This document shows positions 10,752-59,795 of a stretch of DNA of 64,000 bases, in pieces. The position numbers and the translations under genes are program-made. Location of the stretch: positions 1 through 64,000 of the forward strand of contig JAHJIN010000345.1 in NCBI GenBank assembly GCA_018823415.1, written 5' to 3'. The stretch's first letter is position 1, and the number at the start of each line of letters is the position of its first letter. Source of the DNA: Chloroflexota bacterium. GTDB lineage: Bacteria > Chloroflexota > JAHJIN01. The notes beneath the pieces are model-generated. The model had not been told where the DNA came from and did not search any database. It saw only the letters and a list, made by a program, of their open reading frames with translations.

Positions 10752-12065
10752 TTAATGGGCGCGGAACGAGAGCTTGATTGGCGTACCTTGAAAGCCAAAC
10801 TCCTCACGCAGTTGGTTTTCCAGGTAGCGCTGATAGGAAAAATGAACCAGTTCGGGCTGGTTGACGAAAAACACAAACGTGGGCGGGTCCACGGCCGGCT
10901 GGGTGACATAGTAAAAGCGCAAGCGTTGACCTTTTTTGGTGGGCGGGGCATGCTGGTACGTGATGCGGCGCAAAAAGCGGTTCAGTGGCCCGGTGGGAAT
11001 GCGCAAGGCCCGGTTCTCGCTGATGCCCAGGGCCAGGTCCATCACCTTGTCCACGCGCTGGCGCGTGAGGGCCGAGATAAAGACAATGGGCACATAGTCC
11101 ACAAACTTGAGCTGGTCCATGATGAAGGCAGTGTATTCATCGATGGTGTGCCCGGTCTTGTCGGGCACCAGATCCCACTTGTTGACGGCGATGACCACAC
11201 CTTTGCTGGCCTCGATGATATAGCCGGCGATGTGGGCATCCTGGGCGGTGACGCCCTCAGTCGCGTCCAAAACCAGCACGGCCACGTCGGCGCGATTGAT
11301 GGCCTTGAGGGCGCGCAGCACGCTGTATTTTTCCACGCCGCTTTCGATGCGGCCGCGCCGACGGATGCCGGCCGTGTCGATGAGCACCACCGGTTGGCCG
11401 GCCCAGACGATGGGTGTGTCGATGGCGTCGCGGGTGGTGCCGGGGACCGGGCTCACGATGGCGCGTTCGCGGCCCAGGAGGGCGTTGAGCAGCGAGCTCT
11501 TGCCCACGTTGGGCCGGCCCACAATCGCCACGTGGATCATGTCCTCGTCATCGGCCGGCTCGTCCGCCGGCAGGTGGGCCACAATGGCATCCAACAGGTC
11601 GCCGGTGCCGGTACCGTGCAGTGCCGAGATGGGGATGGGATCACCCAGGCCCAGTTCATAGAATTCCAGGGCAGCCAGGCGGCGCGCCTCGTTTTCGCAC
11701 TTGTTCACTGCCAGGATCACCGGTTGCTGGGCGTCGCCCCGGCGGATCAGGTCGGCCACGCTGTAATCCAGGCCGGTGAGGCCGTCGACCGCATCGGTGA
11801 GAAACACCACCACGTCGGCCTCGGCGATGGCGGCCTGGGCCTGTTCGCGGATGCGCGCGCTCATATCATCGCTGCTGCCCAGGTCCAGCCCCCCGGTGTC
11901 AATGATGGCAAACGTATGCCCGGTCCATTCCGCATCGGCATAGAGCCGGTCGCGCGTGGTGCCGGCCACGTCGTCCACGATGGCCTGGCGCCGGCCGGCG
12001 AGCCGGTTGAACAGGGTCGATTTGCCCACGTTGGGGCGTCCCACAATGGCGACAAGAGCTTTCAT
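10752..12065 (-). CDS. der: ribosome assembly GTPase Der (EngA)
   Basis: 437 residues with two tandem GTPase domains and a C-terminal KH-like domain, the hallmark of Der, which acts in 50S subunit maturation. Walker A motifs 'GRPNVGKSTLFNRL' (near residue 8) and 'GRPNVGKSSLLNAL' (near 180). Switch/G2-G3 parts are 'DVAGTTRD'...'DTGG' and 'PVPGTTRD'...'DTAG'. NKCE and NKWD are the base-specificity motifs. The KH-like domain includes 'RRITYQHAPPTKKGQRLRFY'. It lies downstream of ybbR, separated by one copy of the intercistronic repeat, whose end ('ccaggttagg') provides the only Shine-Dalgarno-like sequence upstream of the ATG. Confidence 0.97.
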   Translation of the reverse strand: MKALVAIVGRPNVGKSTLFNRLAGRRQAIVDDVAGTTRDRLYADAEWTGHTFAIIDTGGLDLGSSDDMSARIREQAQAAIAEADVVVFLTDAVDGLTGLDYSVADLIRRGDAQQPVILAVNKCENEARRLAALEFYELGLGDPIPISALHGTGTGDLLDAIVAHLPADEPADDEDMIHVAIVGRPNVGKSSLLNALLGRERAIVSPVPGTTRDAIDTPIVWAGQPVVLIDTAGIRRRGRIESGVEKYSVLRALKAINRADVAVLVLDATEGVTAQDAHIAGYIIEASKGVVIAVNKWDLVPDKTGHTIDEYTAFIMDQLKFVDYVPIVFISALTRQRVDKVMDLALGISENRALRIPTGPLNRFLRRITYQHAPPTKKGQRLRFYYVTQPAVDPPTFVFFVNQPELVHFSYQRYLENQLREEFGFQGTPIKLSFRAH

Positions 12066-12070
12066 GGCAT

Positions 12071-12151
12071 CCTAACCTGGATAAACCAGAACCAACCAAG
12101 ATGGCGCTTTTGAGAATTCGTGTTCGTTGTCCAAGAATTGCGCTGGTTAGG
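12071..12151 (-). repeat. intercistronic palindromic repeat, family 1, copy A
   Basis: 81 bp bounded by CCTAACC...GGTTAGG. It fills the gap between the ybbR stop (3 bases away) and the der ATG (5 bases away). The body resembles copies at 50135, 53364 and 56062: 'cctggataaaccaga.ccaacca' at one end and 'caagaatt..gctggttagg' at the other. This is the most diverged of the four good copies. Confidence 0.85.
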
Positions 12152-12154
12152 CCC

Positions 12155-13366
12155 CTACTTGGCAGTGATGGTGACGGTGATGAGGCCGGGGTCGGTGCTC
12201 AACACGGTCACGGGCATGGTGGGCGTGATGATGATGCTGGGGGCGATGGGATAGGTCCCAGCTTCCAGGCCGGTCACGTCCACATAGGCAATGACGGATT
12301 GGGGCGCCAGGTCGCGCAGGGTAATCAGGTCGCCCGCGAGCTGGATGTCGAGGGTAGAGAATGACAGGCCGGCGTTCCACAGTTCTGGGTCCAGGCCGCG
12401 TATCTCGATGGGGCGGCGCACAAACTGACCGCCGGGGACGGGCACCACGTCGATGCGCACCAGCACACTGTCGCGTTCTGCCACCTGAACGCCCTCGGGC
12501 AAGATCAGCTTGGTGTCCTGATAGGTGGTATTGCGGAGGCCGTCGATGTTTAGCGGTACCGTATCGACCAGTTGCACGTTACTCAGGGCTTCCAGGGTGC
12601 CTTGCAGCGTGATGGCGGTGGGCACCACTCCGATGTTGCGCACCCAGTAGCCGGCAGCCGGTTCGCCATCCAGCACCGCATGCACCGGGACCGTCTTGTA
12701 GCTGATCAGTTGCTTGATAGGGACGGCCAGGGCCACGGTTTGCGGGTTTACCGTCAGGCCGGTGATCTCTTGGCCCTGGTTGTTTTCGGCGACGGGGCGC
12801 ACGGCCCGTTGAATGCTCACCGTGATGCCGGCCAAGTCCAGATCTACCACGGCGCGTGTGGCGGGCTTGACCAGGCTCTCGGCCCCGGTGACAGTGACCT
12901 GATCGGGCGTGACGGAATAGGCCTCGGCTCCATAGCCCGGCGGCGGGTCTGACAGGATGTTGACCTGCACCGGGATGGTTTTTTCGATGGACTGCTCCAG
13001 GCGCACGGTAATGCGCTCGGGATCGGTCTTGACGACGGTCATATAGGGCACAGAACAGCGAACGTGCACAGGCAGGTCGTGGCGGCCCGAGCCGATGCCG
13101 GCAAAGTCGATCCAGACCGAAAAGCTGGAGGAGCGCAGGGCATCCCACCCGTCTTTGGGGCCTTGGAGGGTGACGAGCACGGTGTCGGCGCTGTTCTCCA
13201 TTAACACCAGGTCGGCGCCCAGGCCGATCTTTTCTACCGGGATGGGGTTGCCAAACGTTCCCGCGCGGTTGGGATTCTCTTCGCTGACGGCTGCCACCCA
13301 GACCAGTATGGCCATGCCCAGGGCCCACAAGAGCAGGACCAGGTTTTTGGTTGCTGCGCGCATCAT
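12155..13366 (-). CDS. cdaR: YbbR-domain protein, regulator of c-di-AMP synthase (CdaR)
   Basis: 403 residues: one N-terminal membrane anchor ('LVLLLWALGMAILVWVAAV') then three to four YbbR repeats of about 85 residues each on the outside, each with the pattern 'K.IPV.v...g.p..GY.......P..v.v.G'. In Firmicutes CdaR binds and modulates CdaA. The start at 13366 overlaps the cdaA stop by four bases (ATGA), so the two are translationally coupled. A weaker alternative is the next ATG at 13363. Confidence 0.9.
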   Translation of the reverse strand: MMRAATKNLVLLLWALGMAILVWVAAVSEENPNRAGTFGNPIPVEKIGLGADLVLMENSADTVLVTLQGPKDGWDALRSSSFSVWIDFAGIGSGRHDLPVHVRCSVPYMTVVKTDPERITVRLEQSIEKTIPVQVNILSDPPPGYGAEAYSVTPDQVTVTGAESLVKPATRAVVDLDLAGITVSIQRAVRPVAENNQGQEITGLTVNPQTVALAVPIKQLISYKTVPVHAVLDGEPAAGYWVRNIGVVPTAITLQGTLEALSNVQLVDTVPLNIDGLRNTTYQDTKLILPEGVQVAERDSVLVRIDVVPVPGGQFVRRPIEIRGLDPELWNAGLSFSTLDIQLAGDLITLRDLAPQSVIAYVDVTGLEAGTYPIAPSIIITPTMPVTVLSTDPGLITVTITAK

Positions 13367-14172
13367 CGCCTCCACCAGCGATTGAGAACGGGGCGCTGGG
13401 TGTATAGGGCTGTCAGTCGGCGCTGCAATTGCTCGCCGTTCAGGTTGCGCGTGAGATGGCCGTTGTGGGCCAGCGAGATGATGCCGGTCTCTTCGGACAC
13501 CACAATAGCCAGGGCGTCTGTCCCTTCCGAGATGCCCAGGCCGGCGCGATGCCGCGTGCCCAGGTGCTCGTCGGACATCAGGCTGTCGCTGAGTGGCAAG
13601 AGGCAGCCGGCGGCGGCCAGTCGCCAGTTGCGGATCATGACCGCGCCATCGTGCAGGGGCGTGTCGGGGTAAAAGATGGTGAGCAGCAGGGCCGCCGAGA
13701 TGTCGGCGTCCAGATCCACGCCGGTGTCGATATAGTCTTGCAGACCGGTCTCGCGCTCCATCACGATGAGCGCGCCGCGCTTGCGTTCGGACAGTAGCAC
13801 GGAGGCCCGGCCCAGTTCGTCGAACACGCGGGCCATTTCGGCATGGTTGTTGCGGCCCAGACCGGGGATCAGGACGCCGGTGCGCCCCAACCGTTCCAGA
13901 CCGCGCCGAATTTCGGGTTGAAAGATGACCGGCAGGGCAAAGACCAGGGCCGGAAAGACCAAGCGCATCAGCCAGTTAAAGGCTGTGATGGGCAAGAACA
14001 GTCCTACCAGCCAGAGGGTGATTGCCAGCAGGGTCAGGCCGCGCAGCAGCGATTCGGCGCGCGTGCCCCGAAAGAGCATCAGGATCAGATAGAACAAGGC
14101 TGTCACCAGCAAGATGTCCAGCACGCTGATGGGCTGGACGGCGCGAGAGAGCAGCCAACCGAGATCGGACAT
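13363..14172 (-). CDS. cdaA: diadenylate cyclase CdaA
   Basis: Makes cyclic di-AMP from two ATP at the membrane. 269 residues: three N-terminal membrane helices (to about residue 85), then the DAC domain with the catalytic 'DGAVMIRNWRLAAAGC' and the 'GTRHRAGLGISE' motif (RHR). Both signature motifs are intact. The partner cdaR overlaps its stop codon. Upstream, 43 bases away on the same strand, is the TPR protein, so the transcript may start further up. c-di-AMP commonly governs osmolyte and potassium balance, but no target gene is evident in this window. Confidence 0.95.
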   Translation of the reverse strand: MSDLGWLLSRAVQPISVLDILLVTALFYLILMLFRGTRAESLLRGLTLLAITLWLVGLFLPITAFNWLMRLVFPALVFALPVIFQPEIRRGLERLGRTGVLIPGLGRNNHAEMARVFDELGRASVLLSERKRGALIVMERETGLQDYIDTGVDLDADISAALLLTIFYPDTPLHDGAVMIRNWRLAAAGCLLPLSDSLMSDEHLGTRHRAGLGISEGTDALAIVVSEETGIISLAHNGHLTRNLNGEQLQRRLTALYTQRPVLNRWWRR

Positions 14173-16576: not shown

Positions 16577-17500
16577 CTAGACGCCCATCAGTGTGACCAT
16601 GATGGCCTTTTGGGCGTGCATACGGTTTTCGGCCTGGTCAAAGACCGCCGCGTGCGGGCCGTCCATCACCCTGTCGGTGATCTCTTGGCCGCGATGGGCC
16701 GGCAGGCAATGCAGCACGATGACATCGGGCTGGGCCTGGGCCACCAGCGCTTCGTTGACTTGGTAGCGCTGAAAGGCTTGCAAGCGGGCTTCTTGCTCGG
16801 CTTCCTGGCCCATGCTGGTCCACACGTCAGTATAGACCACGTCGGCCCCTTGCACGGCCTGCACCGGGTCATCCATGATGGCGATCTGGCTGCCGCTCTG
16901 AGCGGCAAAGCCCCGGGCCAGTTCCAACACGGCGGCGTCGGGCCGGTAGCCCGAGGGTGCAGCCAGGGTGATGTGCGTCCCCAGCTTGGTGGCGGCAAAC
17001 AGCAGCGAGTTGTACACGTTGTTGGCATCGCCAATGTAGGTGAGCTTGAGACCCTCCAACCGGCCCTTGTGCTCCAGGATGGTCTGAAAGTCACCCAGGG
17101 CCTGGCACGGGTGCGCATAGTCTGACAGGCCGTTGATGACCGGCACGCCGGCCCACTGGGCCAGTTGTTCAATATCCTGGTGGCGAAACACTCGTGCCAT
17201 GATCAGGTCCACATAGCGTGCCAGCACGCGGGCTACATCGGGTACGCTTTCGCGCTCGCCCAGCTTGATCTCGTTGGGCGACAGATATAGGGCCTCGCCG
17301 CCCAGTTGGAGCATGCCCACCTCAAATGATACGCGCGTGCGCAGCGATGGCTTCTGAAAGACCATGCCCAGGACCTTGTTCTGAAGCAGTGGGGGGTTGC
17401 CCCGAGCTTTTTGCTCGACCTTGAGGGCGATGGCCCGGTCCAAAAGAGCCTGTAATTCGGCCGGCGTATAGTCAGCAATGGTGACAAAGTCTTTGTGCAC
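16577..17500 (-). CDS. argF: ornithine carbamoyltransferase
   Basis: Forms citrulline from ornithine and carbamoyl phosphate in arginine synthesis. 307 residues, typical length. Carbamoyl-phosphate loop 'KPSLRTRVSFE' near residue 50 (family STRTR region; the first position is Ser-Leu here), 'HPCQALGD' near 130, and the ornithine-binding 'HCLPAHRGQEI' near 268. The Asp-x-x-x-Ser-Met-Gly element is present as 'DVWTSMG'. No other arginine gene is nearby. A start 14 codons upstream cannot be required, since the family N-terminus fits 'MHKDFVTIADYT'. Confidence 0.95.
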   Translation of the reverse strand: MHKDFVTIADYTPAELQALLDRAIALKVEQKARGNPPLLQNKVLGMVFQKPSLRTRVSFEVGMLQLGGEALYLSPNEIKLGERESVPDVARVLARYVDLIMARVFRHQDIEQLAQWAGVPVINGLSDYAHPCQALGDFQTILEHKGRLEGLKLTYIGDANNVYNSLLFAATKLGTHITLAAPSGYRPDAAVLELARGFAAQSGSQIAIMDDPVQAVQGADVVYTDVWTSMGQEAEQEARLQAFQRYQVNEALVAQAQPDVIVLHCLPAHRGQEITDRVMDGPHAAVFDQAENRMHAQKAIMVTLMGV

Positions 17501-17517: not shown

Positions 17518-19278
17518 TTATGGTGATAAATACTGCTTGTTGCTGGATTCATGTATGTTGCCGGCGACCAATTCCACGGTGATAGTGTGCTCGGCGTGGT
17601 CTGCCGGATGCAAAGAATCGAACGTGATGCGATATTGGTCCTGCAACTGGCCGCGCGTTTGCTGGTACAGGGCATCAAGCTCGTTGGGCGTGGGCGCATA
17701 GAGATAGCGACCACCGCTATCGGCCGCGATGCGTTCCAGGATCTCGGGGGTGAACTGGGCACCCTGGAGGCCGATGGCATAGACCGGCACGTTGGTGGAT
17801 CGCGCCAGGGCCATGCAACTGTCCAACTCGTATGTCGTGCTGGCCGTGTCGCAACCGTCCGTCAGGATAATGGCAGCGTGCCGGTTGGGTTGTGTGCTCA
17901 ACAGGGTCGCGCTGGCGCCAACCACGTCAAACAAGGCCGTATCGCCATTGGCTTCCAAGCCCTCAATGGCCGCGATGATGCTGGTTTTGTCCGTGGTGAA
18001 ATCGTGCACCACATGAACCTCGCCGCTAAATGCGACCAGACAGACCGAGTCCTGCGGGCTCAACTGGCGGACAAACTTGGCTGCCGCTTCTTTGGCCCTG
18101 TCCATCGGCTCGCCCTTCATGCTGCCACTGACGTCGATGGCCATGACCAGGGACAGTGGATCCTGGGTCACGCTCACCCGTTTTGCACTAAAGGTAGATA
18201 CCGGGCGACCATCCTGAAAGACGCGCAGATGCTCGCGCCCCACATTGCGAAATGGCCGGCCATCCTTGTCCAAAACACTCATATAAGTGATCACGGTGGG
18301 GAATTGGCCTACACTGATCTGGTTAATGATCAAAGTCAGCTTGGTATCGCGGGTCCATGGCACACTGACCGTAGGCGTCGGCGCGTTGACCAGCATATTG
18401 CTCACGGCCAACCCGGCACCGACAAAGGCCATCGCCGCGCAGAGAAACACAAAGGATACCACGGCATACGCGATGATCGGGTGGAAAAGCAATCCCCCAA
18501 TCTGCATTTGTTTCTTCCGACGCAAGGCCGGGTCGCCTTTGGCACAACCGGCCAGGGCTTTGCGCATCTCGGCGGCAGTGCGATAACGGTCTTGTGGCGC
18601 CAGGGCCAGGGCTTTTAGCAGGACCTTTTCCAGTGGGCGAGAAATGACCGGATCCAGCCGGCGCGGCGGAACGAGAGGGTCCTGCACTTGCTGGCGTTCC
18701 TGGGGCGCGGGCGGGGCGAATCCCAGGAGCAGGCAGTAGAGCAGTGCGCCCACTGCATACACATCAGATGGCGGCCCTATATCCTGCGGGGCATGCTCGG
18801 GAGCGGCGAAATGGTTTGCCGACTCGTCGGCATCGGATTCGCTCCAACTACCACGCAGGGTGGGCAGCAAGAGACTGCCGTCGGCGGCGAATTGTATGTC
18901 GGCCAGGCGCATGGGTTTATAGCGCAGGTGAATGACCGGCGGTTTGTGCTCGTGCCAGGCCTTCAGGTTGGTACAGATCTGGATGCCCCAGCGGATCACC
19001 CACTTTTCTTGGATGTTGCCGGCGGCCGATTGCAACAGGGCCAGGTCCTGGCCCTCGACACCGGTGATCACATAGTCACGTTCGCCCTCGCGAAAATAGG
19101 CCAGGAGTTGGGGCGGGCGCCGGGTGACGTTGATGCGCGGCTCGGCTTCCCAGATAAAGCAGTACTCTTTGGTGTCCGGCATGTAGCCCAGATAGACAGT
19201 GCGCTGTGTGCCGTAACCAATGACATCTTTGATGCCATATTTATCATGCAGGATGGTACCGGGCGATAACAGTTTCAT
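17518..19278 (-). CDS. membrane protein: degenerate kinase domain fused to von Willebrand factor A domain
   Basis: 586 residues from the ATG at 19278, preceded by 'ggggggacgagc'. Residues about 1-255 have the length and landmarks of a Hanks-type Ser/Thr kinase ('IKDVIGYGTQRTVYLG', later 'DVYAVGALLYCLLLG', 'ALAPQDRYRTAAEMRKAL'). The catalytic features are missing: no Lys in the VAIK position ('CFIWEAEP'), 'VIHLRYKPMRL' instead of HRDxKPxN, and no DFG. So it is probably a pseudokinase. A membrane helix at about 270-297 follows, then an extracellular VWA domain from about 370 with a full MIDAS: 'DVSGS', Thr in 'NGDTALFD', and 'LTDGCD'. It would link an external adhesion/ligand module to an inner scaffold. 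The gene starts 17 bases upstream of argF's start region and may be co-transcribed with it. Confidence 0.85.
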   Translation of the reverse strand: MKLLSPGTILHDKYGIKDVIGYGTQRTVYLGYMPDTKEYCFIWEAEPRINVTRRPPQLLAYFREGERDYVITGVEGQDLALLQSAAGNIQEKWVIRWGIQICTNLKAWHEHKPPVIHLRYKPMRLADIQFAADGSLLLPTLRGSWSESDADESANHFAAPEHAPQDIGPPSDVYAVGALLYCLLLGFAPPAPQERQQVQDPLVPPRRLDPVISRPLEKVLLKALALAPQDRYRTAAEMRKALAGCAKGDPALRRKKQMQIGGLLFHPIIAYAVVSFVFLCAAMAFVGAGLAVSNMLVNAPTPTVSVPWTRDTKLTLIINQISVGQFPTVITYMSVLDKDGRPFRNVGREHLRVFQDGRPVSTFSAKRVSVTQDPLSLVMAIDVSGSMKGEPMDRAKEAAAKFVRQLSPQDSVCLVAFSGEVHVVHDFTTDKTSIIAAIEGLEANGDTALFDVVGASATLLSTQPNRHAAIILTDGCDTASTTYELDSCMALARSTNVPVYAIGLQGAQFTPEILERIAADSGGRYLYAPTPNELDALYQQTRGQLQDQYRITFDSLHPADHAEHTITVELVAGNIHESSNKQYLSP

Positions 19279-19326: not shown

Positions 19327-22300
19327 TTATACGTGAAAGTCAGGGCCTTGTCCAGCCGCGATCCGGCGGTACAGGGCGGCAGTTTCGGGCGACGGGGCCA
19401 CGCCCAGGTCATGCTGAAGGATGCGCTGGCATTCCTGGTACTGCTGCACGGCCTCGGCGCGTCGGCCGGCCTGGAAATAGGCCGCCATGAGCTGGCGGTG
19501 CGCCTCTTCACGGTAGGGATCGCGGGCCAGGATGGTCTGGTAGTGGCCGATGGCCGTGTCCAGGTGGCCCAGCCCGGCGTGATATGCTGCCAGGTGGGAC
19601 CGGGTGTTCAGATACAGTTCGCGCAGCCGCTCGCGCTCGACAATTGCCCAGTCTTCATACGGGTCTTCGGCCAGATAATCGCCGGCGTACAGGTCGATGG
19701 CCTCTTGCCAGGCCTGTTCGTCGCTCGACTGGGCCAATTGCCCAAACGTGTCGGCGTCCAGGTCATAATGGCTGTGCCGGTTGAACCAGTATAGGCTCTC
19801 CTGGGTGTGGAGGTAATGCGAGGCCGCGCCGGCATAGAGATAGGGCTCCAGCACCCGGCGCAGCGCCGACAGGGTGACGTTAAAGTTGTTGATGGCCGAT
19901 TCGGGTGGCATTTCCGACCACAGGGCTTCCAGGATTTCGTCGCGGGGGATGCGCCGGTGGCGGTTGGTAATGAGAAACTTGAACAACCCCTTGACCTTGG
20001 CTCGCTTCCACTGGTCGTCGCCAATAAACTCGTCGCCGCGATAGACGCCAAATTCGCCCAGGGTGATGATGCGCAGCAATGGCTTGGCGCTGGTGGCGAT
20101 GCGGGCCAGTGCCTCTTGCACGGCTTGACGCACGGCCGGGGAAGGGTCCTGGCGCAGCCGGGCCAGGGCGGGCACGGCGCGTTCGTCGCCCAGGGCGCCC
20201 AGCGCCTGAGCGGCCTGCTCGCGCACTGCCGGGTCCTCATCTTGCAGCAGTAACGCCAGGTCTTCCTGCGCGCCCGGCTCCCGGCCGGTGAGGACCTGGC
20301 AGGCATAGGCCGGGTAGATGCGCCGGCGAATGGCAGTGAGCAACAAAGGGCGCACCCAATCGCGTTCCGCGCTCAGCACTGCATCGTGGTGGTATTGCGA
20401 GGCGATGGTCAGGGCCAGACCCAAGTGCCTAACGCTGGCCTCGGCATCGCCGTGCCGCTCGTACAGCACAGCCAGGGCCAGATGGATGCGTGTTTGCTCG
20501 TCTTTGTCACGCGCGCCCTGAAAGGTTTCCAGTGCTGTGCTGAGCAGGCTCACGGCCCGGTCCAGTTCGCCGGTTTCGACACACAGTGCGCCCAGCGTAC
20601 TTTGAGCCAACGCCATGTTGTACGGACTGTCCAGGCTGGCGCTCAGTTCCAGGGCTTCCTGACCAAAACGTTGGGCCTCGGGCAGCCGGCCCCAGCGGCG
20701 GTAGAGCGTGCAGAGGCCCAGCAGCACGGCGGCAGTGCCGTATTCGTGGTGGAGCGTGCGAAAAGCGGCCAGGGCCTGGACATAATGCGCCTCGGCCGAG
20801 GCATAGTCCTGGCTGTCGCGAGCAATGTCACCGGCGATGAGCCACGCTTGAGCCTGGCTGCTAGGTAACCGGTAGCGCTCGGCAATGTCTGACAGGCGAT
20901 CCAGGGCTTTTTGCGCGGCGTCAAACTCGCCCCGCACATTGTGCAGCCGGGCCACGTCGCCCAAGGTCTCGGCCAGGGCATAAGGATTGCCCAGGTCTTC
21001 TTGAATGCGCAGGGCCGCCTGAAACATCTCCAGAGCACGGTGCAACTCGCCGCGATAGAGGTATTGGGCGCCCATGACGCCAAAGAGGTACGCGCGTATG
21101 GCCGTGGCCTCGTCGCCCACCTGCCGGCTCAGGAGCAGGGCCTCGGTGAGCAGGTCATCGGCCTCATCCAGCTCGCCCGTTTGCTGCAAGGCCTCGGCCA
21201 ACTCGCTCAGGGCGCGCAGTCGAAAGGCCGGCTGGGCTGGGCACGCCAGCGCGGCGCGATAAAGCTCGCTGGCCGGCTCCAGGTCGCCGCGCGCGCGATG
21301 CACCGATGCGCTGTTTTGCAATGCTAGCCCCAGGCCCTCGCCGTCGTCGCGGGCCACAAACAACTTGCGAGCTGCCTCATAGTGCTTGAGCGCAGCGGCC
21401 CATGACTCTTGCAGCTCGGCCACTTCGCCAGCACGCAGGAGGAGCCACGGTGAGCTGGCGACCAGATCGGCCGGCAAAGCCGCCAGCCAGCGTCCCAGCG
21501 TATCCACGCGCCCGGCGCGCAGCATTTCTTCGGCCTGCTGCTGGATCAGTTCGGCGGCGGTAGCCCAATCCTGGGCCTGGAGGCTGTGCTCGATGGCCTC
21601 GTTGGGCTCGCCCAGGCGCAGCCATTCGCCGGCTGCGCGGTGGTGCAGGTTGCGCACGGCCGCCTCGCCGGTTTGGTGCAGCAATTGCCGCCGCAAAAAA
21701 TCGCGGAACAGGGGATGATAGCGATACCAGCGCCCCCGGGCGTCCAGGGTAAAGGTGAGTAGGTTGTTGCGTTCTAGCGCATCCAGCACCTGGGCGGCAT
21801 TGTCGATCTCGAGCACATGGTTGCAGAGGGACACGCTCATCTGCCGCAAGATGGACGACCGGCGGGCAAAGTCCTTGAGTTCAGCCGGGTGACCATCTAG
21901 CACCTCTTCGGCCAAATAGTCGTACAGGTGCCGGGTAGTGCCGTCAAACTCGGCGATGGCATGGCTGGCGTGGGACAGGCCCCGGCGTGCGATGGCCTGC
22001 TGTACCAGTTGCAGGCTGGCAGCCCAACCTTCGGTGCGGGTTTGGAGGAGCGCCAGATCGGACTCGGTGATGGGCAGGTCATAGATCTGGCGGAACAGGT
22101 GGGCGACTTCGGCCGGCGTAAAGCTCAGATCGTGCTCGTCAAACTCGACAATCTCACCGGCCACGCGCAGCCGGGCCAGGGTATCCAGTGGTGGTTCGCG
22201 CCGGGTGGACAGGATCAGGTGCAGGTTGGGCGGCAGGTAGCGGAGCAGCGTGTCTATGATGTCCATGACCGCCGTGCTCTGGTCTACCCGGTGCACATCG

Positions 22301-22710
22301 TCCAGCACCAGCACCGCTTGCGCCGGGACTGCCTGTTCCATATCGTTGACCAGCATCGCCAGCACGGTTTCTTGGACCCGGCGGTCGTCGGCGGTGCTGC
22401 GTAACACGTGTTCGGCTTTGGCTGCAAAGGTGGGCAACAGCGGGGCCAGCGCGGCACTCAGATAAGACAGGAACACCCGGCGGTCGCGGTCGGTGGGATC
22501 CAGGCTGTACCAGAGGCCGTGCAGCGCGCCTTCGGACTGGATGTGTGCTATATAGGAGGCCAGAAGCACGGTCTTGCCGTACCCGGGGCCGGCGCACACT
22601 AGGACGCCCTTGCGGCGGGGCACTTCAGCTTGGAGCCGCTCCAGGAGCCGGGGGCGCTGGAGGATGGGCTGTTGGAAACAAGGCGGCGCGAGCTTGGTGC
22701 GCACAGTCAT
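19327..22710 (-). CDS. very large STAND-type transcriptional regulator (MalT-like NTPase, TPR, HEAT repeats, SARP/BTAD output)
   Basis: 1127 residues from the ATG at 22710; the track's upstream start lies beyond the promoter. Domain order: NTPase with Walker A 'GPGYGKT' (41-47) and Walker B 'VLVLDDVHRVD' (about 137-147), MalT-like winged-helix/helical linker (to about 370), a long TPR array (about 380-800), two HEAT-like repeats near 825-880 ('DPAVREQAAQALGALGDERA'), an OmpR-type winged helix near 890-970 and a bacterial transcriptional activator domain to the end ('LYAGDYLAEDPYEDW'). The output is therefore at the C-terminus and SARP-like, not LuxR-like as in MalT. Ligand and target genes are unknown. 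A HEAT insertion between sensor and output is unusual. Confidence 0.9.
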   Translation of the reverse strand: MTVRTKLAPPCFQQPILQRPRLLERLQAEVPRRKGVLVCAGPGYGKTVLLASYIAHIQSEGALHGLWYSLDPTDRDRRVFLSYLSAALAPLLPTFAAKAEHVLRSTADDRRVQETVLAMLVNDMEQAVPAQAVLVLDDVHRVDQSTAVMDIIDTLLRYLPPNLHLILSTRREPPLDTLARLRVAGEIVEFDEHDLSFTPAEVAHLFRQIYDLPITESDLALLQTRTEGWAASLQLVQQAIARRGLSHASHAIAEFDGTTRHLYDYLAEEVLDGHPAELKDFARRSSILRQMSVSLCNHVLEIDNAAQVLDALERNNLLTFTLDARGRWYRYHPLFRDFLRRQLLHQTGEAAVRNLHHRAAGEWLRLGEPNEAIEHSLQAQDWATAAELIQQQAEEMLRAGRVDTLGRWLAALPADLVASSPWLLLRAGEVAELQESWAAALKHYEAARKLFVARDDGEGLGLALQNSASVHRARGDLEPASELYRAALACPAQPAFRLRALSELAEALQQTGELDEADDLLTEALLLSRQVGDEATAIRAYLFGVMGAQYLYRGELHRALEMFQAALRIQEDLGNPYALAETLGDVARLHNVRGEFDAAQKALDRLSDIAERYRLPSSQAQAWLIAGDIARDSQDYASAEAHYVQALAAFRTLHHEYGTAAVLLGLCTLYRRWGRLPEAQRFGQEALELSASLDSPYNMALAQSTLGALCVETGELDRAVSLLSTALETFQGARDKDEQTRIHLALAVLYERHGDAEASVRHLGLALTIASQYHHDAVLSAERDWVRPLLLTAIRRRIYPAYACQVLTGREPGAQEDLALLLQDEDPAVREQAAQALGALGDERAVPALARLRQDPSPAVRQAVQEALARIATSAKPLLRIITLGEFGVYRGDEFIGDDQWKRAKVKGLFKFLITNRHRRIPRDEILEALWSEMPPESAINNFNVTLSALRRVLEPYLYAGAASHYLHTQESLYWFNRHSHYDLDADTFGQLAQSSDEQAWQEAIDLYAGDYLAEDPYEDWAIVERERLRELYLNTRSHLAAYHAGLGHLDTAIGHYQTILARDPYREEAHRQLMAAYFQAGRRAEAVQQYQECQRILQHDLGVAPSPETAALYRRIAAGQGPDFHV

Positions 22711-22743
22711 GGGGCACTCCGATGGCGTTGGACGTTGGATGAC

Positions 22744-34901: not shown

Positions 34902-34931
34902 TTGACGTGAGAGGCTCTTGTGTTGTAGAAT
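34902..34931 (+). promoter_or_regulatory. promoter of the fused ABC permease gene
   Basis: TTGACG, 18-bp spacer, TAGAAT, giving a 5' UTR of about 43 bases that ends in 'aggaggtgttgac' before the ATG at 34981. Confidence 0.65.
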
Positions 34932-34980
34932 AGAGATGCACGAACGAGCCAGGCAAACGATTGCCCCAGGAGGTGTTGAC

Positions 34981-36789
34981 ATGGACATGAATCAAAAGTC
35001 GGAACGTAACGCGGGTCATACCTGGCTGCGTTTGTTCTTGGGGTTGATCCTGCTGGCCCCGGCCGGTCTGTGCTGCCTGGCGGGTTTGGTAATCCCAACC
35101 CTTTACACGGCTTTTCTCAGCCTTCAGGATGCCCGGCTGATCCAGCTTGATCAGGCCGAGTTCGTGGGGCTGGACAACTATGCCCGTCTGTTTGATGCCG
35201 GTTCGCCCTTTGGGGAGGCGATGGGCCTGACGCTGCTGCTGCTGGTGGCGCGCGTGCTCGTCGTGTGCCTGGTGCCGTTGCTGCTGCCCCTGGTGGTGAA
35301 CGAATTTGGCTGGCTGGTGCGCGTCCCGGTGCGACTGCTGCTTACGGTGCCGCTGGCCTTATTTGCGCCGGTGGCCTGGGCCACCACCTGGGCATTGGTC
35401 CTGAGTCCCGGCGCGGGGCCGCTCAACGGCATCCTACAATCCGTGGGCCAGCCGGCCCAGCGCTGGCTCATGTCGCCGGACACGGCCCGCTGGGCCTTGT
35501 TGGCCGTTGATGGTCTGTACACCCTGGCCCTGGCCGTGGGGGTGGGATTGGTCTGGTACCTGGCTGCGTTGCGGGGCGTGGGCACGGGCCGGCGCTCTCG
35601 GGGCGCGGCCCTCGTGGCCCTCGTTGCCAGTTGGACGGTGGGCCTGTTGGGCGTGATGGCCCTGTCGTTCCAAACCTTTGTGTGGAGCAACGTGCTCACC
35701 GGCGGTGGCCCGGCCCGGTCCACCACGTCCCTGGAGTTGCTTCAGTACCAGGAGGCGTTCGCCTACATGCGGCCCGGCCCGGGCGCGGCCATCGCCACGC
35801 TGGTTCTGTTGGGGCTGGGCCTTCTGGGCCTGACGGCCGGCCTGGTGATCGCCTTGAGCCGGCTGCGGCTAGAGATGGTAGCCTGGCGCAAGCCGTCGGG
35901 CCTGTTCCAGGGCGTGGGCCGGCCCTGCTGCATCAAGGCCATCGCCGCGCTGCTGCTGGCCGTCCTGGTGCTGGGCGCGCTGGCGGTCTGCATCCTCGTC
36001 GTGCTCCCGGCGGTCTGGGTGGTTGTGTCATCGCTGCGTCCCCCGGCCGACATCGTGCGCTTCCCCTGGCCGATCCTGCCTTTTACCCCCACCACCGCAG
36101 CCTATGAGCAATTGGCGCAGACCGTGCACCTGGATGCGGTCCTGGTAAACACGCTGGTCCCAGGGTTGCTGGCGCTGCTGATCGCCGCACCCATCGCCTA
36201 CCTGGGCGCGCTGGGCATCGGCGCGGCCCGGCCCCTGGGCCGCTGGAGCGAGCTGTTGCTTTTGCCCTTTAGCCCGTGGCTGTTCGCCGGCGTGGGGCCA
36301 CTGAACGTCGCCGCATATGCCATCGTGATGCAGGCACGCGACCTGCCGCTCCTGGTCAAGTTGGCGCTGCCGGGCCTGCTCTTGGTGGTGCCCATGCTGT
36401 TCGTGCTCACCTTGTTCTTCAAGGGCCAGGCGCGTCACTATCGCGCCGCGCGTGCGGCCGGTGCCTCGGCAGTGGGTGCGTTCCTGCGCAAGCTGATCCT
36501 GCCGTCGCTCCCGCTGCTCGTGGGGCTGCTGGCCCTGGCCTTGCTCATTCATGTGCAGGACATGTCCTGGGCCTTTCTGGTGGCCCGAAAGCCCGCCGAG
36601 ATGACCATGAGCGTGGTCCTGGTGCAACTGCGTGGCGCCTTTGCGACTCAACCGGCCCTGCTCATGGCTGCCATGACCCTGTTTGGATTGCCAGTGTTTA
36701 TCATCGCGTTTCTCATCCTGGGAGGGCTGCAAGCGCTGTACCTGGATCGCCTGGCCTTGAGCACCGATCTGGCCGACGTCAAACAATAG
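34981..36789 (+). CDS. sugar-type ABC transporter permease, two domains fused in one chain (MalF-MalG-like)
   Basis: 602 residues and about twelve membrane helices. The first half has MalF/UgpA landmarks ('LVIPTLYTAFLSLQDARL', 'FVGLDNYARLF', 'VLTGGGPARSTTSLELLQYQ'). The second half has MalG/UgpE landmarks ('VVVSSLRPPADIVRFPWPI' and the EAA loop 'RAARAAGASAVGAFLRKLILPSLP'). The expected EAA loop of the first half is missing: after 'WYLAALRGV' comes only 'GTGRRSRGAA'. So one of the two contacts to the ATPase seems lost. No solute-binding protein or ATPase gene lies nearby; these must come from elsewhere. Substrate unknown. Confidence 0.88.
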   Translation: MDMNQKSERNAGHTWLRLFLGLILLAPAGLCCLAGLVIPTLYTAFLSLQDARLIQLDQAEFVGLDNYARLFDAGSPFGEAMGLTLLLLVARVLVVCLVPLLLPLVVNEFGWLVRVPVRLLLTVPLALFAPVAWATTWALVLSPGAGPLNGILQSVGQPAQRWLMSPDTARWALLAVDGLYTLALAVGVGLVWYLAALRGVGTGRRSRGAALVALVASWTVGLLGVMALSFQTFVWSNVLTGGGPARSTTSLELLQYQEAFAYMRPGPGAAIATLVLLGLGLLGLTAGLVIALSRLRLEMVAWRKPSGLFQGVGRPCCIKAIAALLLAVLVLGALAVCILVVLPAVWVVVSSLRPPADIVRFPWPILPFTPTTAAYEQLAQTVHLDAVLVNTLVPGLLALLIAAPIAYLGALGIGAARPLGRWSELLLLPFSPWLFAGVGPLNVAAYAIVMQARDLPLLVKLALPGLLLVVPMLFVLTLFFKGQARHYRAARAAGASAVGAFLRKLILPSLPLLVGLLALALLIHVQDMSWAFLVARKPAEMTMSVVLVQLRGAFATQPALLMAAMTLFGLPVFIIAFLILGGLQALYLDRLALSTDLADVKQ

Positions 36790-42228: not shown

Positions 42229-42257
42229 TTGACAAATGAATGATGATTCAGTATAAT
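42229..42257 (+). promoter_or_regulatory. consensus promoter of the C25 protease genes
   Basis: Perfect TTGACA (42229-42234), 17-bp spacer, perfect TATAAT (42252-42257). The strongest housekeeping-type promoter in the window. 5' UTR about 70 bases ending in 'caaggaggctcc'. Confidence 0.88.
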
Positions 42258-42335
42258 ACAAGTACTGACGTTCATATCACGAGAAGGTTCCACATTCATC
42301 ATCCGGCGCTCGCTGAGCCGGGACAAGGAGGCTCC

Positions 42336-45257
42336 ATGAACGCGCACCGTTTGCACCAACTCGTCAGCCTCGGCGGGATCATGTTGTTGTTGAGCCTGCT
42401 GGCCGGGCCGGTCACGCTCGCCCAGCCAGACACCATCACCCTCACCGTCGCCGCCCCAGCCTATCGCCTGGAGCAGCGCGACGACGCCACCACCATCGAC
42501 GCCGATGGCTGTACCCTCACCGGCGAGGTCGGTCAGGTGCTCATGCCCCACCAGCTCATCGACGTGGCCCTGCCCCCGGACGTCGACTGGGACAGCCTGG
42601 CCCTGACCGTGCGCGACGTGCAGGCGCGCGTGCTGCCCGGCGCTCATCAGTTGCCCGTTCGCCCGCAGCCCTGGCCCCACGGCAGCCCGGCCCCCGACCC
42701 GGCACTGGATGAGCCGGCCGTGCCCCCGCCGCCGGTCGCTGCCATTGCCGCTGCCGGGCAGATGCGCAAATGGCACCTGGCTAGGGTGGATTTCTGCCCC
42801 TTCCAGTATGACGAGGCCACCGGCCAGCTCCGCGTGATCGAGCAGGCCACCGTCGAGTTGCACTTTGCCCGTACCGGTGAGGCCCCCAGCGCTGAACTGC
42901 TTGCGGACACGGCGCTGGACGACGAGGCCGCACACCTGTTCGCCAACTATGCGCAGGCCCGGGCCTGGTATCCTCGCGTGGATCGGACCGGCCTTGTCAC
43001 CTATGATTATGTGATCATGACCACCAACGCCATCCAGGCCAACAGCACCAAATTGTCAGCCTTTGTGGCCCACAAGCAGTCGCGCGGGTACAACGTACTG
43101 GTAGTCACCGAAAGCGCCTACGGGCCGCTCACCGGCCAGGCCCCCAATGGCCGGGCCGAAAAGGTGCGCCAGTGGCTCATGAACACCTACGCGGCCTATG
43201 GCATCCGCTACGTGCTGCTCATCGGCGACCCCACGCCCGAAGGCACCGGCAGCACCGATCTGCCCATGAAGATGTGCCATCCGCGCCACAACAGTCCCTG
43301 GTACCCCTACTGGCGCGAGTCGCCCACCGACTACTTTTTCGCCGACCTCACCGGGAACTGGAACAAGGACGGCGACAGCTATTTTGGCGAGTGGGGCGAC
43401 GACACCGGGGGCGGGGGCATCGACTATATCGCCGAGGTCTATGTGGGGCGCATCCCCTTTTACGACAATTACGATGACCTGGACCACATCCTCCAGAAGA
43501 CCATCGACTATGAGCGCCAGGCCAATGCCACTTGGCGCACCAATGTCTTGTTCCCCATGAGCTTTGTGGAACCTGGCTATGACGATGCTGCGCTGGCCGA
43601 GCAGGTCTGGGACGATCACCTGCACGCCGACGGCTTTAGCCGCTGGCGGCAGTATCAGCAAGGCACCGGCCCCTGTCCGCAAGACAATTCAGTCTATGAC
43701 AGCGAAGAGGCCCTGCGCGGCGATACCATGGTGCGCGACCGCTGGGCCGCCAACCGCTATGGCATTGTCTGCTGGTCGGGGCACGGCAGCCAGACCGGCG
43801 CTTACATCGGCTATGACCCCGATTGCCCAGACGGCACCCTGCTGGACACCAGCCACGTCAGCGCGCTGAACGATTTTTACCCGGCGTTTACCTTTCAGTC
43901 ATCGTGCCTCAACGGCTACCCGGAAAACAGCGAAAACCTCCAATACGCTCTCCTCCGACAAGGCTGCATCGCCACGGTGGCCGCCACCCGGGTGTCCTGG
44001 GGCGATTATAACGACGTCTATGGCAAATACGACGATAGCACGTCTATCTCGGGGCTGGGCTACCAGTACGTCAAGCGGCTGGGGAACCGGCAGACGGCCG
44101 GCCAGTCCCTCTATGGCGCCAAGGCCGTGCGCCCGCCGGCCGACGACTGCCATCTGATGGACTATTTCGACACCAACGTGTACGGCGACCCTGCCGTTTC
44201 GCTGAACTGGACGACGGACGCCGCCGTGCCCACCTCGGCAGCCAGCGTGCCCTATCGCTACACTACCAGCACGGCTATCCCGGTTTCCTGGACCGGCACC
44301 GACACCGGTTCGGGCGTGCGGTCCTACACCGTCCAGGTGCGCGACGGCGGCGGCGCCTGGGCCAACTGGCTCACCGATACCACCGCCACCACCGGCACTT
44401 ATACCGGCCAGGCCGGCCACACCTACCGCTTTCGTTCCATCGCCACGGACTGGGGCGACAACGTCGAGACGGACGTGCCGGCCGACGGCGACGCTGTTGT
44501 GACTGTGGCCACGGCCCGGGTGACCGGCCGCGTGACCGGCAACCGGGGCGCGGCGGCGTATCAGGCCCGGGTGACGCTGGACCCGGCCGCCCTCAACGGC
44601 ACCGCCACCGTCGATGGCATGTGCGCATACGAGCTGTTCCTGTCTGCCAACGGGACCTATGATGTCAGCGCGTCGGCCCCGGCGACCGAGGCCCTGGGCG
44701 ACGCCTATGGCAGCCTGCCGCCCCTGAAGGACGTGGCCGTGAGCGGCGACACCGCCTGTCCGGACCTGGTGCTGCCCCCGGCGCAGGATGCCATCACCAA
44801 TGGCCAGTTCGAGGCCGGCCTGGCCGGCTGGGATTATGCCACGCCGTTGGCCCTCACTGCCGACGCGCACACCGGTGACGCCGCTGTCCAGGTGGCATAT
44901 CCGGTTGGCCCGGCTCCCGCGCCCTCTCCCGTGCTCTGGCAGGACACCAGCATCAACGCCGGCTGGGCCTATCCCACCCTGTCACTGGTGTACCGCCTAT
45001 CCGGCGGCAACGCCAATGACCACCTGTGGGCCGTCGTCACCGGTCCCACCCAGACCATCTCGGTGCCCCTGCCGGCCGCCGCCGACTGGACCTATGTCTG
45101 GCTGGACCTGGGGACGCTGGCCGGGCGGGCCGTCACGGTGGCATTGGAAATCGACCGTGACTCCATCTTGCCTCTCACCCTGACGGTAGACGAGATCAGC
45201 CTGGGGCCGGGTGCCGTGGGGCCGCACAACGTGTTCTTGCCTCTGGTATCACGCTGA
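42336..45257 (+). CDS. secreted C25-family (gingipain-like) cysteine peptidase, copy 1
   Basis: 973 residues. Signal peptide to about residue 30, propeptide-like region to about 225, then the C25 catalytic domain ('YVLLIGDPTPEG', 'AEVYVGRIPFYDNYDDL'). Catalytic His in 'VCWSGHGSQ' (about 484) and Cys in 'FQSSCLNGYPENS' (about 523), the gingipain dyad. C-terminal to the domain come an Ig-like module ('YTVQVRDGGGAWANWL' ... 'TYRFRSIATD'), a carboxypeptidase-regulatory-like segment and a carbohydrate-binding-like beta-sandwich. The chain ends 'NVFLPLVSR'. Probably an extracellular endopeptidase. A second, clearly paralogous gene follows after 59 bases. Confidence 0.88.
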   Translation: MNAHRLHQLVSLGGIMLLLSLLAGPVTLAQPDTITLTVAAPAYRLEQRDDATTIDADGCTLTGEVGQVLMPHQLIDVALPPDVDWDSLALTVRDVQARVLPGAHQLPVRPQPWPHGSPAPDPALDEPAVPPPPVAAIAAAGQMRKWHLARVDFCPFQYDEATGQLRVIEQATVELHFARTGEAPSAELLADTALDDEAAHLFANYAQARAWYPRVDRTGLVTYDYVIMTTNAIQANSTKLSAFVAHKQSRGYNVLVVTESAYGPLTGQAPNGRAEKVRQWLMNTYAAYGIRYVLLIGDPTPEGTGSTDLPMKMCHPRHNSPWYPYWRESPTDYFFADLTGNWNKDGDSYFGEWGDDTGGGGIDYIAEVYVGRIPFYDNYDDLDHILQKTIDYERQANATWRTNVLFPMSFVEPGYDDAALAEQVWDDHLHADGFSRWRQYQQGTGPCPQDNSVYDSEEALRGDTMVRDRWAANRYGIVCWSGHGSQTGAYIGYDPDCPDGTLLDTSHVSALNDFYPAFTFQSSCLNGYPENSENLQYALLRQGCIATVAATRVSWGDYNDVYGKYDDSTSISGLGYQYVKRLGNRQTAGQSLYGAKAVRPPADDCHLMDYFDTNVYGDPAVSLNWTTDAAVPTSAASVPYRYTTSTAIPVSWTGTDTGSGVRSYTVQVRDGGGAWANWLTDTTATTGTYTGQAGHTYRFRSIATDWGDNVETDVPADGDAVVTVATARVTGRVTGNRGAAAYQARVTLDPAALNGTATVDGMCAYELFLSANGTYDVSASAPATEALGDAYGSLPPLKDVAVSGDTACPDLVLPPAQDAITNGQFEAGLAGWDYATPLALTADAHTGDAAVQVAYPVGPAPAPSPVLWQDTSINAGWAYPTLSLVYRLSGGNANDHLWAVVTGPTQTISVPLPAAADWTYVWLDLGTLAGRAVTVALEIDRDSILPLTLTVDEISLGPGAVGPHNVFLPLVSR

Positions 45258-45316
45258 CCAGGGTAGTTTTGACCAACTCGACCACCACACCATCACTATT
45301 TTTGGAGGTATTCCAC

Positions 45317-48277
45317 TTGAACCCGAGACACTCACACCGACTCATCGGCACCTGCGGCATGCTGCTCGCCGCACTGCTGGTCGGCGCGGCCACGGCTGCC
45401 GGCGCGCCGGCGCCGGCCCCATCGTCGGCCCCATCATTGGGCAGCGTCACCCTCACGCTCCGGGCGCCGGCTTACCAACTCGCCCCTGCCCAAGACGGCT
45501 ACACGGACATTCAGGCCGAAGGCTATAGCCTGTCCGGCGCCGTCGGCGCGGCCCTGCTGCCCCATCAACTCGTGGACGTGGGCCTGCCGCCCGACATCGA
45601 TTGGGACAGCCTGACCCTGACGGTGACAGACGCGCAGACGGCTGCGGTGCCCGGCACCTTTAATCTGCGCACCGCCGTGCCGGACGCGCCCAACTCCGGC
45701 CCGCTTCCAGACTCCCTCCCCCAAAGTTGGGGGAGGGCCGGGGTGGGGGCCGGGGCGATAGCCACCATCGCCGCCACCGGCCAGATGCGTAAATGGCGCC
45801 TGGCCCGGGTGGATTTCTGTCCCTTTCAGTATGACGAGGCCACCGGCCAACTCGGCGTGATCGAGCAGGCCACCGTCGAGTTGCGGTTCAAACGCACCGG
45901 TGAGGCCCCCAGCACCGAACTGCTCGCGGACACGGTGCAGGACGACGAGGCCGTGGCCCGGCTGGTCAACTATGAGCAGGCCCGGACCTGGTATCCTCAC
46001 GTGGATCGGGCCAGCGCCCTCGCCTATGATTATGTCATCATTACCACCAACGCCATCGCCGGCGGGGCCGGCGAACTGGGCAATTTCGTGGCCCACAAAC
46101 AGGCCAAGGGCCATAACGTACTGGTCGTCACCGAAACCGCCTATGACCCGCTCACCGGGCAGGCTCCCAACGGCCGGGCCGAAAAAGTGCGCCAGTGGCT
46201 CATCAACAACTATGCGGCGTCTGGCATCAAGTACGTGCTGCTCATCGGCAACCCCACGCCCGACGGCACCGGCAGCACCGACGTGCCCATGAAGATGTGC
46301 TGGCCGCGTCGGCACACCACCTCGTATCGCGAGTCGCCCACCGATTACTTTTTCGCCGATCTCACCGGCAACTGGGACCTGAACGGTAATGGCTATTATG
46401 GCGAATGGGTCGGCGACTTGGGCGCCGGCGGCGTAGATCTGACGCCCGAGGTCTATGTGGGGCGCATTCCCTTTTATGGGAGCTATGCTGACGTGAACGC
46501 CATCCTGCGCAAGACCATGACCTACGAAAGCTCTTCCAGTACAGACTGGCGCAAGACCATCTTGCTGCCCATGAGCTTTTCCCAGACCGGCTATGACGGC
46601 GCGCCCCTGGCCGAGCAGATGTGGGACGACTATTTGAACGCCGCCGGGTACGGTCGCTGGCGGCAATACCAGCAAGGTAGCGGTCCCTGCGGACCAAACT
46701 CTATCTATCCCAGCGAAGAAGAATTGCGCAGCAACACCGTGGTCAATCGTTGGAAAAACAATGTCTACGGCATCGTGTGCTGGTGGGGCCACGGCAGCGC
46801 GACGTCGGCTTCGGTTGGCTATGACAGTTGTTGGGATGGCACACTGTTCAGCAACAGCCAGCCCAGCCAGTTGAACGACAGTTACCCGGCCATGATCTAT
46901 CAATGCTCCTGCCTGAACGGTTACCCGGAAAACGCCAGCAACCTCCAATACGCCCTGCTCAAGCGCGGCGGCGCGGCTACGGTGAGCGCCTCGCGCGTGT
47001 CCTGGTTCAACACCGGCGTGGGCTATGGTCAATTCGACGGCAGCAGCACCAACTCGGGCATTGGTTACGAGTACGTCGAACGACTGGTGATGGGACAAAC
47101 GACCAGCGAGGCGCTGTATAACGCCAAGTCCGGCCTGCCGCTGGAATATGACTCGCGGCTGATGAACATGTACGATTTCAACCTGTACGGCGACCCCGGT
47201 CTGTCTCTCCTGAAAACCGTGATCCCGCAGCCGCCGGTCTCGTCTGCCAGCGTATCTGCGCGCTATACCATCAATACGGGCGTCCCGGTGTCCTGGCAGG
47301 GGTCCAGCCCCGACGGCGTGAGCATCAAGTGGTACACTATCCAGGTCCGCGACGACGCCGTGGGCACCTGGAGCGATTGGCTGGTGAACACCACGCTCAA
47401 CGCCAACATCTACACCGGCGTGGCTGGCCACACCTATCGGTTCCGGTCTATCGCCACAGACCAGCGCGACGTCGTCGAGACGGACGTGCCGGCTGACGGT
47501 GACGCCATCGTCACCGTGGCGGCGGCCCGGCTCGTCGGTCAGATCAACAACAACCGGGGCGAGCCGGCGTTCCCGGCCCAGGTCACGGCCTCGCCGGCGG
47601 CCCTCAACCAGCCCGTCACTCTCGATGGCTGGGGTAACTATGAGCTGTTCTTTGCCGCCAACGGCACCTATGACATCACCGCTGCGGCCGCCACGGCCAA
47701 GGACCAGAGCGCCGGCACCTTTGGCGTCTTGCCGCCCTTGAAAAACGTCGCGGTCAGCGGCGATACCGCTGCCACGGACCTGGTGCTGCCCCCGTCCGAC
47801 GAGGCTATCGTCAACGGCCAGTTCGAGTCGGGGTTGCTGGTGTGGCACCCGATGCCGGCCATCACCCTGACCACCCAGGCCCACACCGGCGACTATGCCA
47901 TGCGCCTGGTGAACCTGGGCAGCCCCGCCACCCTGTCGCCGGCCATCTGGCAAGCCACCACCATCCCCATGGGCTGGGACATGGTCACGCTGTCCGTGTT
48001 CTATCAGGTGGTCGGGGGCAACGCGGCGAACGACGACATCTGGCTGGCTGTCACTGGTCCCACCCAAGAGATCACGATCCCATTGAGCGTGGCGACGGGG
48101 GGCTGGGTGCACGCCTGGCAAGATGTTCGCGACCTGACCGGGCAGCCCGTTACCGTGTCCTTGCACGCGGACCTGCAATCGGCCCTGGTCCTCGCGCTCG
48201 ACGAGATCAGCCTGGGGCCGGGCGCCAGCGGTCCCCTGCACGTCTTTTTACCGCTGGCCTTGCGCAATAGCCCATAA
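45317..48277 (+). CDS. secreted C25-family (gingipain-like) cysteine peptidase, copy 2
   Basis: 986 residues from TTG at 45317, eight bases after 'ggagg'. Colinear with the preceding gene across its whole length, so a tandem duplication. Signal peptide 'MLLAALLVGAATAAGAPAPA'. Catalytic His in 'VCWWGHGSA' and Cys in 'QCSCLNGYPENAS' are kept. The propeptide region contains 'LPDSLPQSWGRAGVGAGA', encoded by a palindromic GC-rich insertion absent from copy 1. The C-terminus is 'HVFLPLALRNSP'. Co-transcription with copy 1 is likely because no terminator separates them. Confidence 0.88.
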   Translation: MNPRHSHRLIGTCGMLLAALLVGAATAAGAPAPAPSSAPSLGSVTLTLRAPAYQLAPAQDGYTDIQAEGYSLSGAVGAALLPHQLVDVGLPPDIDWDSLTLTVTDAQTAAVPGTFNLRTAVPDAPNSGPLPDSLPQSWGRAGVGAGAIATIAATGQMRKWRLARVDFCPFQYDEATGQLGVIEQATVELRFKRTGEAPSTELLADTVQDDEAVARLVNYEQARTWYPHVDRASALAYDYVIITTNAIAGGAGELGNFVAHKQAKGHNVLVVTETAYDPLTGQAPNGRAEKVRQWLINNYAASGIKYVLLIGNPTPDGTGSTDVPMKMCWPRRHTTSYRESPTDYFFADLTGNWDLNGNGYYGEWVGDLGAGGVDLTPEVYVGRIPFYGSYADVNAILRKTMTYESSSSTDWRKTILLPMSFSQTGYDGAPLAEQMWDDYLNAAGYGRWRQYQQGSGPCGPNSIYPSEEELRSNTVVNRWKNNVYGIVCWWGHGSATSASVGYDSCWDGTLFSNSQPSQLNDSYPAMIYQCSCLNGYPENASNLQYALLKRGGAATVSASRVSWFNTGVGYGQFDGSSTNSGIGYEYVERLVMGQTTSEALYNAKSGLPLEYDSRLMNMYDFNLYGDPGLSLLKTVIPQPPVSSASVSARYTINTGVPVSWQGSSPDGVSIKWYTIQVRDDAVGTWSDWLVNTTLNANIYTGVAGHTYRFRSIATDQRDVVETDVPADGDAIVTVAAARLVGQINNNRGEPAFPAQVTASPAALNQPVTLDGWGNYELFFAANGTYDITAAAATAKDQSAGTFGVLPPLKNVAVSGDTAATDLVLPPSDEAIVNGQFESGLLVWHPMPAITLTTQAHTGDYAMRLVNLGSPATLSPAIWQATTIPMGWDMVTLSVFYQVVGGNAANDDIWLAVTGPTQEITIPLSVATGGWVHAWQDVRDLTGQPVTVSLHADLQSALVLALDEISLGPGASGPLHVFLPLALRNSP
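45714..45737. repeat. small palindromic repeat inserted in frame in the protease gene
   Basis: CCCTCCCCCAA-ag-TTGGGGGAGGG followed by 'ccggggtggggg'. Copy 1 of the protease has unrelated sequence at the same place, which suggests insertion in copy 2 without breaking the frame. Confidence 0.65.
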
Positions 48278-58632: not shown

Positions 58633-58640
58633 CTGTGTCG

Positions 58641-59627: not shown

Positions 59628-59658
59628 CTCGCCCTCCTCTCATTTCTCCGGTCTTTTC

Positions 59659-59773
59659 AGTGTTGCCGAACATTTTACCGCAGAGACCGCCGAGTTCGCC
59701 GAGTTTTTCTCTTGTTCTCAGCGGTCTCGGCGTGCTCTGCGGTTCAAAAAGTGGGCACTATTTCAACAACTCT
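59659..59773. repeat. MITE-like repeat family 2, full copy in the thiamine operon
   Basis: 115 bp with imperfect terminal repeats AGTGTTGCCGA / TCAACAACTCT and core 'accgcagagaccgccgagttcgccgag...ctcagcggtctcggcgtgctctgcggtt'. It lies between thiX and thiY, 31 bases before the thiY ATG. Similarity to the 53140 copy extends beyond the repeats into 'caagaggga'. Confidence 0.85.
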
Positions 59774-59795
59774 CAAGAGGGAGCCTGTCCATTTC

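Follow-up and report, generated by a model that had tools for sequence, protein, structure and literature searches.

A Chloroflexota membrane protein predicted to join an inner, catalytically dead kinase domain to an external VWA domain

What can a protein kinase domain do in a membrane protein once its catalytic residues have been lost? The question is raised by a gene at positions 17518..19278 (minus strand, as are all features of the gene given below) of the window, a 64,000-nucleotide stretch of Chloroflexota DNA. Its 586-amino-acid product combines a pseudokinase domain, a transmembrane (TM) helix, an Ig-like strand region and a VWA domain, as judged from the list of open reading frames, Pfam and hhalign. 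The frame is open from an ATG, with a ribosome-binding-like GGGGGG stretch a few nucleotides 5' of it. The pseudokinase domain spans residues about 8-247 (18538..19257; hhalign, AF2 with a kinase alignment, Foldseek) and is followed by a TM helix at residues about 264-290 (18409..18489), within a hydrophobic segment of residues about 259-297, by a strand region predicted to be extracellular and N-terminal to the VWA domain (residues about 314-372; 18163..18339), which falls within the TIGR03436 match and is kept in relatives, and by the VWA domain itself (residues 377-540; 17659..18150). The helix is the only one, with a hydropathy of 2.59 over 19 residues and five K/R residues among the 15 that precede it versus one after it. 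Since the hydrophobic segment follows an RRKK motif, the kinase domain is predicted to lie inside and the VWA domain outside, a topology drawn from charge and hydropathy only. The earlier note had described a kinase fold joined through a membrane helix to an external VWA domain, and this arrangement was borne out by the kinase alignment (hhalign E = 8e-34), the one TM helix and the PF00092 match. A membrane protein with an inner, catalytically dead kinase domain and an external VWA domain is thus a well-supported prediction.

Kinase ancestry is evident over both lobes. Residues 6-245 aligned at the above E-value (99.9%) to a profile (A5) built from 15 active kinases of Chloroflexota, in which the Lys, Glu, HRD, Asn and DFG positions are all invariant, and a PDB sequence search returned PknB as the top match, through the C-lobe (E = 5e-12, residues 147-251), which together place the domain in the Hanks (protein kinase-like) fold. 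The Pfam Pkinase family, matching the C-lobe, remained below its threshold (21.8-25.2 bits against a cut-off of 31.7). The residues of an active Hanks kinase are, however, missing. The VAIK lysine is replaced by W43 (19150..19152), about 23 amino acids that include helix C and its Glu are absent relative to active kinases, HRD is replaced by HLR (residues 117-119; 18922..18930) with R119 in place of the Asp, DFG is replaced by TLR (residues 140-142; 18853..18861) with Thr in place of the Asp, and the third glycine of the glycine loop is R26. For example, the segment around the lysine site reads C-F-I-W-E, compared with C-A-L-K-E in L004, an active kinase from the same genome. The APE motif (residues 159-161; 18796..18804) is kept, as is the helix-F Asp172. 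The absence of the catalytic Lys, the HRD Asp and the DFG had been noted previously and is confirmed, with the alphaC Glu also lost, and inspection of the alignment for catalytic residues in shifted positions found no Asp substituting for that of HRD or DFG. R26 occupies what we take to be the position at which WNK-type kinases carry their relocated lysine, but a WNK-type shift was rejected as R26 is not conserved in relatives and a catalytic Asp is lacking. Judged from these aligned positions, the inner kinase fold cannot perform normal phosphotransfer, and ATP binding in the normal mode has probably been lost as well.

Structure prediction was consistent with this assignment. When AF2 was given an alignment of 25 kinase sequences from viral and genome contigs, the pseudokinase was modelled at pLDDT 80 and pTM 0.79, with beta strands at residues 14-22, 27-33, 38-44, 61-64 and 68-72 and with helices where D, E, F and the subsequent ones would be expected, but without helix C; Foldseek returned PknB structures as the best matches (TM about 0.74). 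The genome-contig search had yielded a planctomycete kinase as its sole return, and a first scan of viral contigs had yielded none. As active kinases in the alignment bias the model towards a kinase fold, the result shows that the sequence fits this fold and is not independent proof of it. The comparison with kinase structures proposed in the earlier note was made with this alignment-based model; the single-sequence model failed (pLDDT 36).

The predicted external part belongs to a recognisable family. PF00092 matched with 67 bits (E = 3e-18), and the NCBIfam model TIGR03436 matched residues 328-575 with 106.4 bits, above its cut-off of 81.25. All five MIDAS residues are present, comprising D382, S384 and S386 of the DxSxS motif (18121..18135), T447 (17938-17940) and D474 (17857-17859). 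The complete MIDAS reported previously thus stands at the level of sequence, and we infer that the site may bind a metal and a ligand. By score, the domain shares its family with the Chloroflexota TIGR03436 VWA proteins (VWA-TM-FHA and others), although these have a signal-type N-terminus, and some carry an FHA domain or a zinc ribbon after the VWA domain. Among 30 other relatives of the window VWA domain that were scanned, FHA was found in the same chain in 10 and a kinase domain in none. This ectodomain family is thus repeatedly tied to docking modules of phospho-signalling. Three VWA relatives (L011, L018 and L073) are either neighbours of T2SSF/Tad-type secretion genes or fused to them. 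A tree was built from 42 VWA domains, and in its best version all nine that are joined to pseudokinases fell on one side of a branch, with weak support (84/0). The grouping of the window domain with those of G358 and G409, two genera of one other family, had a support of 94/90. These data are compatible with one origin of the fusion but do not prove it.

The architecture recurs in other Chloroflexota. When 400 genomes of the phylum were searched with a profile, it was recovered at full length, besides the window, in six genomes of a single genus, Herpetosiphon, where the order pseudokinase-TM-VWA was present in all six of those sampled; the H. aurantiacus gene lies at 465644-467380 of the chromosome, on the minus strand. 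A class-wide search of 158 genomes added a full-length protein in G358, in which TPR-like, pseudokinase, TM, extra and VWA domains form one chain of 918 amino acids, and a split copy in G409 (a 71%-complete draft assembly), where the same parts are spread by frameshifts over three frames. A second phylum-wide draw of genomes returned the same positives, and the fusion is absent from most sampled Chloroflexota. The frame is intact in 8 genomes from three lineages. The kinase domains of the G358 and G409 proteins aligned to kinases at E = 2e-14, while those of Herpetosiphon did so at E = 1e-7 (hhalign) and only from about the hinge onward. In three intact homologues scanned, Pfam found no kinase family and reported VWA only, plus a weak TPR match in one, indicating that the pseudokinase is hidden from standard annotation. 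The survey of homologues proposed in the earlier note thus found degraded kinase domains; the lysine site varies among them, with Trp in the window protein, Herpetosiphon and G358 and Ile in G409, and Trp was therefore dropped as a universal feature. The sharing of this architecture by Herpetosiphon and two other genera marks it as a genuine protein family that selection maintains.

Selection on the dead domain was estimated across six Herpetosiphon species (Nei-Gojobori), for which dN/dS ratios are approximate because dS in some cases approaches or exceeds 1. The pseudokinase gave 0.054-0.090, in the same range as the Ig-like and VWA regions (0.036-0.10), and the TM helix and linker gave higher values of 0.18-0.5. 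Such strong purifying selection indicates that the dead kinase is maintained rather than a relic, a conclusion drawn from the Herpetosiphon copies and not from the window copy. Its conservation in separate lineages, together with the purifying selection, gives good support to the view that the domain does something.

Upstream of the gene by 48 bp lies a STAND/SARP-type regulator (19327..22713, minus; MalT-like NTPase, TPR, HEAT and BTAD domains by Pfam and NCBIfam), an open reading frame of 1178 amino acids with a probable start near 22713. Beginning 17 nt downstream of the stop codon is an ornithine/aspartate carbamoyltransferase-family (argF-like) gene (16577..17500, minus; Pfam), which has its own GGAGG Shine-Dalgarno sequence and is probably co-transcribed with the pseudokinase-VWA gene. 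The Herpetosiphon copies, judged from their sequences, instead have a sensor-kinase-like gene on one side and LysR/sigma-factor-like genes on the other, the G358 copy has yet other neighbours, and no neighbour is shared among the window, Herpetosiphon and G358 loci. The giant STAND neighbour pointed out in the earlier note is therefore present, but its relevance is unsupported, and functional links to both the STAND and the argF-like gene were rejected since the neighbourhood is not conserved. Elsewhere in the window, adjacent YbbR (CdaR-like) and DAC (c-di-AMP cyclase) genes (12155-14172, minus) lie downstream of a TPR gene, open reading frames of 623 and 476 amino acids (34918-36789 and 58635-60065, plus) have no Pfam match at 1e-5, and two tandem proteins of about 1000 amino acids, 11 nt apart (42240-45257 and 45269-48277, plus), each contain a Peptidase_C25 (gingipain-type) domain.

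Membrane-bound dead kinases have precedents. The closest match in sequence and fold is to PknB-type receptor kinases, which likewise place a kinase inside, a TM helix and a sensor outside, but the external part is PASTA there and VWA in the window protein, which also lacks the catalytic residues. One precedent with a dead kinase is mycobacterial MviN, whose membrane part is of the lipid-II-flippase type. As a member of the ActPs3 family, it resembles the window protein in being a membrane protein that has lost all three catalytic motifs, with bulky aromatics reported in its pocket where the window protein has W43 at the lysine site, and its pseudokinase region recruits FhaA; however, it carries a carbohydrate-binding domain and no VWA domain and is described mainly from actinobacteria (PMC12599244). 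EssB/YukC likewise starts with a cytoplasmic pseudokinase that lacks catalytic motifs, followed by one TM helix and a C-terminal external domain, although that domain is helical rather than VWA; its pseudokinase binds its ATPase at the FHA region of the latter (PMC9600267). The likeness of the window protein to both is one of architecture only. GLW pseudokinases, mainly from proteobacteria, also have Leu or Trp at the beta-3 lysine site and a TM helix after the kinase domain (PMC12599244), but GLW replaces HRD there, whereas the window protein has HLR and its relatives other residues, and VWA is not mentioned for them. The 2025 review that lists seven families of bacterial pseudokinases mentions neither Chloroflexota nor VWA (PMC12599244).

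As normal phosphotransfer is lost, and normal ATP binding probably so, a docking platform is the most likely use of the inner fold, and we give about even chances to a receptor or anchor whose non-catalytic pseudokinase docks a partner. In such a single-pass membrane protein, with its N-terminus inside, the external VWA domain would bind a ligand via a metal ion in the MIDAS, the kinase fold would act as a non-catalytic docking platform for a candidate partner such as an FHA protein, an active Hanks kinase of the cell or another cytosolic protein, and the docked partner would in this way sense the state of the ligand or clustering on the outside. Docking, like any partner named here, is our inference. 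The conserved domain order, the purifying selection in Herpetosiphon and the FHA domains of VWA relatives also speak for this reading. The predicted topology and the EssB/YukC and MviN precedents make the receptor with an inner docking module, already suggested in the earlier note, a reasonable proposal. Docking is without genetic support, as no partner gene is conserved adjacent, and the interface need not be shared given how divergent the Herpetosiphon kinase domains are. The broken G409 copy and the lack of the fusion in most sampled Chloroflexota also weigh against this reading. More tentatively, these proteins could form an undescribed Chloroflexota receptor-pseudokinase family that couples an integrin-like, metal-dependent ectodomain to a dead-kinase adaptor, loosely like integrin and integrin-linked pseudokinase in one chain, possibly with a part in how filamentous gliders contact other cells or surfaces.

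Adhesion without signalling is possible but doubtful. Here, the VWA domain would hold a component of the surface, sheath, pilus or wall, while the pseudokinase would only fix it to a cytoplasmic structure, which agrees with the TIGR03436 type of the extracellular domain, with the T2SSF/Tad-type domains or genes beside several VWA relatives and with the filamentous, gliding habit of Herpetosiphon (PMC3368417). Such an anchor leaves unexplained, though is not excluded by, the maintenance of the kinase fold at dN/dS below 0.1. It is rather improbable that the dead domain instead dimerises with an active Hanks kinase to activate or inactivate it. At least 10 kinase-domain genes above the Pfam cut-off occur in the genome, among them that of the TM kinase L004, similar to the window domain in both sequence and general layout, and both bacterial kinases and MviN have been reported to form back-to-back dimers (PMC12599244), but a kinase gene is neither adjacent nor conserved nearby and evidence for an interface is lacking.

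The remaining alternatives fare worse than the docking receptor or anchor. A secretion-machine component would share the topology of EssB/YukC of type VII secretion (PMC9600267, PMC11217815), but the external VWA domain is not all-helical, Pfam YukC gave no match at E = 1 in the window protein or at E = 0.1 in three homologues, and no WXG100 gene was detected in the protein's own genome (93% complete); a type VII role was rejected on this basis and is very unlikely. Equally slim is the prospect that a repurposed active site catalyses another reaction (AMPylation, glutamylation or similar), as in SelO and SidJ, since the active-site residues differ between lineages and the aligned positions hold no repurposed ATP- or metal-binding residues of the kind that SidJ keeps (PMC12599244). 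Least probable is a decaying relic of a receptor kinase, which would account for the degraded motifs and the frameshifted G409 copy but conflicts with the intact frame in 8 genomes of three lineages, and which the dN/dS ratios refute for Herpetosiphon.

The genome of the window also appears to encode a second pseudokinase membrane protein, as suggested by the sequence of a 662-amino-acid frame (L094; G000:C252, about 11593-12717, minus). This frame contains two consecutive kinase-like regions, followed by a TM stretch and then perhaps an external domain, and its second kinase-like region has HGN in place of HRD and DVS in place of DFG, while the AVK lysine is kept.
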